From Chloroflexota bacterium (lineage in GTDB: Bacteria > Chloroflexota > Dormibacteria > CF-121): DNA of 60,072 nucleotides. The stretch lies in NCBI GenBank assembly GCA_005881425.1, contig VBIC01000111.1, positions 1 to 60,072 of the forward strand, written 5' to 3'. Positions 47,050-48,556 of the stretch are shown here, piece after piece (the first letter of the stretch is position 1; each line of letters opens with the position of its first letter). The notes beneath the pieces are model-generated. The model saw nothing but the letters and a program-made list of their open reading frames with translations, was not told where the DNA came from and did not search any database. The position numbers and the translations under genes were made by a program.

Positions 47050-47352
47050 ATGCGACTGCGTCCACTCGGCGATCGCGTCGTGATCAAGCCGGTCGAGCGG
47101 GAGGAGAAGACCAAGAGCGGCATCGTCCTTCCGGACACGGCCAAGGAGAAGCCCCAAGAGGGCATGATCGAGGCCGTCGGCAACGGGCGTTTCATCGAGG
47201 CAACCGGCAAGCGCGAGCCCCTCGACGTCAAGGTCGGGGACCGCGTCGTCTATGCCAAGTACGCGGGGAGCGAGATCAAGCTCGACGAGACGGAGTACCT
47301 GATCGTCTCCGAGAAGGACATCCTCGCCGTCGTGGCCAACGGCAAGGCCTGA
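47050..47352 (+). CDS. groES: co-chaperonin GroES
   Basis: Heptameric lid of the GroEL chamber, 100 aa. The start is ATG 47050 with GGAGG at 47039-47043 and a closer AGGAG at 47044-47048; the frame upstream is untranslated leader with [18 protein letters not shown], the mobile loop [19 protein letters not shown] and [21 protein letters not shown] are typical. No groEL follows; a terminator and a convergent gene do. Confidence 0.96.
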
Positions 47353-47368: not shown

Positions 47369-47896
47369 TCAGGAAGCCGGCGGCGAGCCGGCTTCCTTCG
47401 TTTTCGGCCGCGGGATCGTGGGCAGCCCCAGCACCGCCTCCTGCAGGGCCGTGTAATGGTCGTCGTCACGCACGTTGTAGGCCGGGTTGACCCAGCGCAG
47501 GTAGCCCCGGTAGTCGATCAGGAACATGGCCCGCCTGGCAACGCCCTCCTCCTCCCGGAGCACGCCGTAATCTCGCGCGGCCGCCTTGTGCCAGTCCGCG
47601 ACCAGCGGAAAGGGAAGGTCACCCAGGCTGACCGAGTACGCTTTGTGCGACCAGATGTGGTCGACGCTGATGCCCAGGATCTGGACCGCTGACTTCTCGA
47701 AGAACTGGTGATCTTCTCTCAAGGAGGAGAACTCCTTGGTTCAGCCGGGGCTGAAGTCGAAGACGTAGAAGGCAAGTAGCACGTGACGGCTTCCCCGAAA
47801 GGAGGACAGCGTCAGCGGCTCGCCGTCGGGTGTTGCGGGAAGGGTGAAGTCGGGCGCCAGGTCGCCCACCCCCGGGACCCTCGATCCGTCCGCCAT
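47369..47896 (-). CDS. peroxiredoxin (AhpC/TSA, BCP/AhpE type), probable selenoprotein with Sec52
   Basis: Thiol peroxidase fold of 175 residues if one TGA is read through. ATG 47896 gives [20 protein letters not shown], then [22 protein letters not shown], then TGA, then [10 protein letters not shown] and [34 protein letters not shown] and [16 protein letters not shown]. In BCP/AhpE-type peroxiredoxins the active site reads DFTPGCTKE. The TGA (complement of 47741-47743) falls exactly on the peroxidatic cysteine, so selenocysteine is the natural reading, and Sec peroxiredoxins are known. A TGC-to-TGA error is the alternative. The start is preceded by TAGAAT and 6 bases (leaderless). Without readthrough, only residues 1-51 are made. 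Confidence 0.8.
47371..47397. terminator. bidirectional terminator between groES and peroxiredoxin
   Basis: An 11-bp perfect stem (AGGAAGCCGGC with GCCGGCTTCCT) around GGCGA, followed on the plus strand by TCGTTTT. It ends groES. On the minus strand it lies inside the last codons of the peroxiredoxin gene (KEAGSPPAS). Confidence 0.8.
47741..47743 (-). other. in-frame TGA at the peroxidatic Cys codon (candidate selenocysteine)
   Basis: Codon 52 of the peroxiredoxin. Immediately downstream in the mRNA a 7-bp perfect hairpin can form (CAAGGAG, loop UUCUC, CUCCUUG), starting 3 bases past the UGA. Weaker overlapping hairpins lie further on. The first stem is closer to UGA than the classical bacterial SECIS and lacks a G at the loop start, so I do not claim a canonical element. 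Confidence 0.6.
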
Positions 47897-47902
47897 CGTG
47901 TA

Positions 47903-47908
47903 ATTCTA
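47903..47908 (-). promoter_or_regulatory. -10 box of the peroxiredoxin gene (leaderless)
   Basis: On the minus strand TAGAAT, then 6 bases, then ATG, with no SD. Confidence 0.5.
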
Positions 47909-47923: not shown

Positions 47924-48556
47924 ATGCTCTTCAGGGATCGTGAGGATGCGGGCCGGCAGCTGTCGCGCCGCCTCGAGCGCTACCGGGCCGACCCGGATGC
48001 AGGAGTGCTGGGCATCCCGCGGGGCGGCATCGTGGTGGGCGCGGCCATCGCCCGCGAGCTGCACCGGCCGCTGGGCGTCTGCGCGGTCCACAAGCTGGGC
48101 GCGCCCGGCAACCCGGAGCTGGCGATCGGAGCCGTCGACGACGAGGGCGCCACCATCGTCGACTGGAGCCTGCTGCGGCGGCTCGAGGTCACCGACCAGG
48201 CGCTGGAGGTGGAGGTCGAACGCCAGCGCCGAGAGCTGCAGCGGTGGGTCGGCGACGTCGCCCAGGGACGGACGGCGCTGGTCCCGTCCACGGCGATCAT
48301 CGTCGACGACGGGATCGCCACCGGCGCCACGGCCCGCGCCGCCGTCCAGGCCACCCGGCGCCGTGGAGCCCGCCGCCTGATCCTCGCCGTCCCGGTGGCA
48401 CCCGCCGAGACGGCCAGGGCGTTGGAGGCGTTGGTGGACGAGTGGGTCTGCCTGGCCACCCCGGAGCCGTTCTTCGCGGTCGGCAATTTCTTCGAGGAGT
48501 GGCCGCAGGTGACCGACGAGGAGGTGCGCTCCTTACTGGAAGCAGCTGCACCCTGA
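47924..48556 (+). CDS. phosphoribosyltransferase-family protein
   Basis: A 210-aa PRTase type I fold. The start is ATG 47924 with GGGAG 6 bases before it; the open frame further upstream is antisense to the peroxiredoxin. The PRPP-binding motif is TAIIVDDGIATGATARAAV. MLFRDREDAGRQLSRRLERY and LGIPRGGIVVGAAIAREL resemble stand-alone PRTases of unknown substrate, often found near stress genes. It is divergent from the peroxiredoxin with 27 bases between starts. Substrate unknown. Confidence 0.88.
   Translation: MLFRDREDAGRQLSRRLERYRADPDAGVLGIPRGGIVVGAAIARELHRPLGVCAVHKLGAPGNPELAIGAVDDEGATIVDWSLLRRLEVTDQALEVEVERQRRELQRWVGDVAQGRTALVPSTAIIVDDGIATGATARAAVQATRRRGARRLILAVPVAPAETARALEALVDEWVCLATPEPFFAVGNFFEEWPQVTDEEVRSLLEAAAP

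Follow-up and report, generated by a model that had tools for sequence, protein, structure and literature searches.

The peroxiredoxin gene and its neighbours

The stretch of DNA that was analysed (the window) comprises 60,072 nucleotides of a Chloroflexota genome. On its minus strand, at 47369..47896, lies a gene for a putative selenocysteine-containing (1-Sec, AhpE-like) peroxiredoxin of 175 residues. Translation of the frame from the ATG at 47896 to the terminal TGA at 47369 revealed a single internal TGA, codon 52 (47741..47743, minus strand), at the peroxidatic position in the context DFSPG-U-TKEF, just as the earlier note had described. The position of the ATG is common to 16 relatives, which supports the choice of start codon.

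Two neighbours, given here as context only, flank the gene. The groES gene (47050..47352, plus strand), which had already been noticed beside it, is convergent, and a phosphoribosyltransferase-like gene (47924..48556, plus strand), whose function is assigned from sequence only, is divergent. In the relatives examined they occupy the same places and are 91–95% and 56–60% identical, respectively, and the gene order uvrD, hypothetical gene, phosphoribosyltransferase, peroxiredoxin, groES, tsaD, rimI is kept as far as the loci reach.

A -10-like hexamer, TAGAAT (47903..47908, minus strand; TACAAT in relatives), is found 6 nt before the ATG, and the spacing TAnAAT-6 nt-ATG recurs in 17/17 copies of the peroxiredoxin gene (window and 16 relatives). 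Since there is no room for a ribosome-binding site in between, the mRNA is likely to be leaderless, a property that would be conserved across the 17 copies. In relatives the divergent gene has the reverse complement, TATTGT, at a similarly short distance from its own start, which suggests that the two genes share a symmetric promoter.

Domain, fold and catalytic residue

When codon 52 was read through, one Pfam AhpC-TSA match (PF00578, residues 10-135, E 1.2e-31) spanned both sides of the TGA, in agreement with the earlier claim that both halves fit a peroxiredoxin. The (T/S)xx(C/U) motif is present as S49-P-G-U52 and Arg122 is invariant in the alignment. Wider homologues carry either Cys or TGA at the column of codon 52, so that the TGA was correctly placed at the catalytic position; in the surrounding motif, Val stands where Cys peroxiredoxins usually carry Pro. 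All NCBIfam peroxiredoxin matches were below threshold, among them PrxU (NF040737) with 69.3 against a cut-off of 270 bits. The AlphaFold2 model (pLDDT 91.5, pTM 0.86) predicted a thioredoxin-like peroxiredoxin fold, so that domain, motif, conserved Arg and predicted fold are all those of a peroxiredoxin. In a Foldseek search of this model the 1-Cys enzyme AhpE was the best match by TM-score (TM 0.80/0.88, rmsd 2.3), and some Prx1-type entries had lower E-values than AhpE.

The window protein contains no Cys at all. The same is true of 11 of the 17 copies, while the other six have one Cys each, at position -10 from Sec (five copies) or +55 (one copy); no Cys is conserved in the 17 copies apart from the Sec position. 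A single catalytic residue without a resolving Cys is what defines the AhpE type, and as there is no Cys anywhere in the enzyme it would be a 1-Sec peroxiredoxin. The absence of Cys, together with the AhpE-like predicted fold, supports an enzyme that would be regenerated by an outside thiol.

If the UGA were a true stop, the locus would either give two products or make a truncated one in a regulated way, and a TTG at 47722 does open a 117-codon frame downstream. However, the peroxiredoxin domain crosses the UGA, the active site would be in neither half because the catalytic residue sits at the stop itself, and each Cys homologue is one continuous chain that has its Cys at the same column. We therefore consider a true stop extremely improbable.

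Conservation of the TGA codon

The taxonomic family was represented by 18 genomes from four genera (three besides that of the window), and a search at the level of the order added no genomes beyond the family. Several matching public records turned out to be the same contigs as the family genomes and were not counted as independent evidence. The close relatives of the gene all come from metagenome-assembled genomes (MAGs). In the family 15 relatives have the gene whole (60–70% protein identity), and each of these copies contains a single internal TGA, always at the aligned codon. In G014 two contigs carry one part of the gene each, and the TGA is in the first part; the search of the family genomes gave no match in G007. 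Whether close relatives have TGA or TGC at this column had been proposed as a check, and among them it is always TGA and never TGC. The UGA is thus aligned with the Cys that is catalytic in homologues, and the relatives conserve it, as is expected of a bacterial selenoprotein. Plasmid records yielded only homologues of less than 60% identity.

Synonymous divergence between the window copy and its relatives is near saturation (pS about 0.4–0.75), and the mean pN/pS of all pairs is 0.16 before the TGA and 0.21 after it, indicating purifying selection on both sides. The value after the TGA implies that the downstream part is translated and under selection.

These data bear on the possibility of a sequencing or assembly error, or of a decaying gene that has acquired a nonsense mutation. 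The genome is indeed an incomplete MAG (89.9% complete, 227 contigs), but the same TGA occurs in 15 further copies that are whole, come from species binned separately and are 60–70% identical, the frame has no other disruption and purifying selection persists after the TGA. The conserved TGA, the selection downstream of it and the kept gene order practically exclude a miscall or a random nonsense mutation, which the earlier note had likewise judged improbable.

Selenocysteine machinery of the genome and the family

The genome of the window encodes SelB (contig C51, 631 aa, 361 bits), which scored over the cut-off in 17 of the 18 family genomes, and an intact SelA of 432 aa whose gene adjoins the intact selB; the search for selA and selB recommended earlier was thus positive. 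SelD is present as a fragment at the end of contig C60 and has its own TGA in SHGAG-U-ACK (Sec-SelD), followed by a stem-loop of the standard type, GGTCC-TGA-GGACC. The set of selA, selB and selD is therefore found in this genome, with selD as a contig-end fragment.

A tRNA-Sec with the anticodon TCA scored above the cut-off in 11 of the 18 family genomes (54.7–59 bits), and none was above the threshold in the window's own assembly, which is 89.9% complete. The explanation we offer is that the contig ends before the expected place: contig C136, syntenic to C29 of G016, begins about 1.6 kb short of where the tRNA-Sec lies in G016. The best tRNA-Sec match in the own genome (its contig C29, 43.5 bits) is a tRNA-Ser with the anticodon GCT and was rejected.

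UGA recoding to another amino acid by a changed tRNA occurs in some bacteria, and this, together with the tRNA-Sec unseen in the own assembly, could be taken to mean that UGA is decoded here as, for example, Cys rather than Sec. On the other hand, SelA and Sec-SelD, whose only roles are in Sec or selenium metabolism, are retained, TGA also terminates genes in this genome, including the peroxiredoxin gene itself, and the tRNA-Sec of the relatives is standard, with the anticodon TCA. Decoding as another amino acid is thus very unlikely.

A conserved hairpin after the UGA

The published bSECIS model has a loop of 3–9 nt, a stem of 4–16 bp and a spacing of 16–37 nt, and it also requires a G at loop position 1 or 2 and an MFE of at most -7.5 (PMC13188914). 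Two hairpins were considered as the decoding signal. The first, with a 7-bp stem (CAAGGAG-TTCTC-CTCCTTG, 47720..47738, minus strand), is found only in the window genome and G001, where on its own it is more stable than the second. It was rejected: besides its restricted occurrence, its loop begins 9 nt after the UGA, below the 16–37 nt of the model, a misfit that had been recognised from the start, and at this distance a waiting ribosome would probably cover its 5' arm.

The second hairpin lies 11–29 nt after the TGA, with its apical loop 17 nt after it, and has the sequence TCTCCTC-CTTGA-GAGAAGA in the window (47712..47730, minus strand) and TCACCTC-CTTGC-GAGGTGA in relatives. Counted from the TGA, codons +4 to +7 (CTC ACC TCC TTG in most copies) span its 5' arm and loop. 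Among the 16 family sequences these codons have no synonymous variation, counted within the majority residue of each codon, and they are the only four without synonymous change among 68 four- or six-fold degenerate columns; the chance of the four lowest columns being adjacent is about 8e-5. At codon +7 Leu is encoded by TTG in 16/16 sequences, and other Leu columns have mostly CTG or CTC. Over the 16 sequences 96.4% of the pair cells of the hairpin are standard, compared with 32–58% when it is slid. Covariation is slight, with one compensatory pair (A-U to U-A, in the window and G001), and the shuffle control was only modestly exceeded (13/500). One C.A mismatch weakens the hairpin in these same two genomes, and the window copy has -2.6 against -9.4 kcal/mol. 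We conclude that this hairpin is probably the decoding signal.

Loop length, stem length and spacing of the conserved hairpin are within the published model. No copy has a G at loop position 1 or 2 (CUUG loop), and the energy of the model is reached by most relatives but not by the window copy, so that the window's hairpin as a whole does not conform to the standard model. No standard-model hairpin conserved in the family was found. The suggestion that the signal may be divergent was right, and the conserved downstream hairpin, which breaks the G rule, is better placed. A subset of selenoprotein genes fails the standard model (PMC13188914), and for this reason the poorer fit does not lower the claim that the gene encodes a selenoprotein. 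Rfam SECIS_1 had no match in the own genome or in any control genome and was therefore uninformative.

An early G is present in the hairpins of the Sec peroxiredoxin genes L031, L032, L037 and L039, unlike those of the window's family, as well as in L047, L020 and the SelD of the clade. The hairpin loops of L118 and L119 have no early G, and these two Chloroflexota genes (genomes G228 and G113) may have a similar pyrimidine-rich loop. We tentatively propose, at somewhat less than even odds, that the 7-bp stem with a CUUG(C/A) loop lacking an early G represents a distinct bSECIS class, for which SelB would be shared with standard elements (that of SelD) in the same cells.

Proposed mechanism and comparison with known peroxiredoxins

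We propose, with a probability of roughly 0.94, that the gene encodes an AhpE-like peroxiredoxin of the 1-Cys kind with Sec as the peroxidatic residue and that UGA codon 52 is decoded by SelB and tRNA-Sec. SelB and tRNA-Sec would insert Sec at this codon, and the stem-loop that starts 11 nt after the UGA would most likely recruit SelB. The selenolate would attack the peroxide and be converted to a selenenic acid. As the enzyme has no Cys of its own to resolve it, an outside thiol, which may be a low-molecular-weight thiol, thioredoxin or a redoxin partner, would regenerate it.

Knowledge of Sec peroxiredoxins goes back to 2001. The TxxU enzymes are an established class (PMC13188914, PMC1794560, PMC1088965), and PrxU of Eubacterium acidaminophilum is cited in PMC9312934. 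The statement that Sec peroxiredoxins exist in other lineages was therefore correct (PMC1794560, PMC13188914), and the same two papers divide the claim of a probable new selenoprotein: it stands for the gene itself and not for the class, to which the gene adds a member. PrxU (TxxU, NF040737) and the window protein have in common the AhpC/TSA fold, the peroxidatic Sec and a Thr or Ser three residues before it. The window protein differs in its low NF040737 score (69 against 270 bits), SxxU in place of TxxU, Val instead of Pro at -7 and the lack of any other Cys. AhpE of Mycobacterium tuberculosis (1xvw, 5c04), the best match by TM-score, resembles it in having a single catalytic residue, a similar length and the conserved Arg, but has Cys instead of Sec and is about 33% identical; the Sec form described here is in Chloroflexota. 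The TGA-bearing peroxiredoxins of Chloroflexota and Acidobacteriota (L029-L032, L037, L039, L118-L120) have the same fold, the TGA column and 40–52% identity.

The feature that could be new is the loop of the putative bSECIS. The synonymous-site footprint outlines a defined RNA element with this unusual loop, on which the recognition rules of SelB can be tested. As far as can be judged from sequence data, this family of soil Chloroflexota retains the Sec machinery and would use Sec for peroxide defence in a Cys-free enzyme, and in the family copies seen Sec was never swapped for Cys. The selenoproteins of the phylum Chloroflexi were counted in PMC1794560; otherwise the literature searched on selenoproteins with Chloroflexi or Chloroflexota contained almost nothing on selenium in this high-GC lineage. 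Automated annotation is likely to truncate such genes at the UGA.

Distribution of TGA-bearing homologues

In a tree of 91 homologues, gathered by the query's patterns and thus not an even sample, 39 have TGA and 52 Cys at the peroxidatic column, and five changes between Sec and Cys are needed. The window belongs to an all-Sec clade of 22 rows (support 97/83), which also includes rows from soil Chloroflexota, Bacillota and Terriglobia. L029, L031, L032, L037, L039 and L047 group with the window's family in one all-Sec clade; L118-L120 are not among the rows of the tree. Many TGA-bearing homologues were found among Chloroflexota in a phylum-wide sample.

In several family genomes a second TGA-bearing AhpC/TSA protein, belonging to other subfamilies, was seen, on G014:C317 (L020) and G001:C19 (L019) and in G009, G010 and G013; that of L020 is accompanied by a standard-looking hairpin, CTCCTCC-GGGCA-GGAGGAG. 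In an acidobacterial MAG (L043) two peroxiredoxin genes lie in tandem (875-1255 and 1446-1820), and in each of them the peroxidatic codon is TGA. A TGA-bearing homologue with 43% identity (tblastn) was also found in the complete chromosome record of Tumebacillus avium AR23208 (L052), which may offer a cultured test case.
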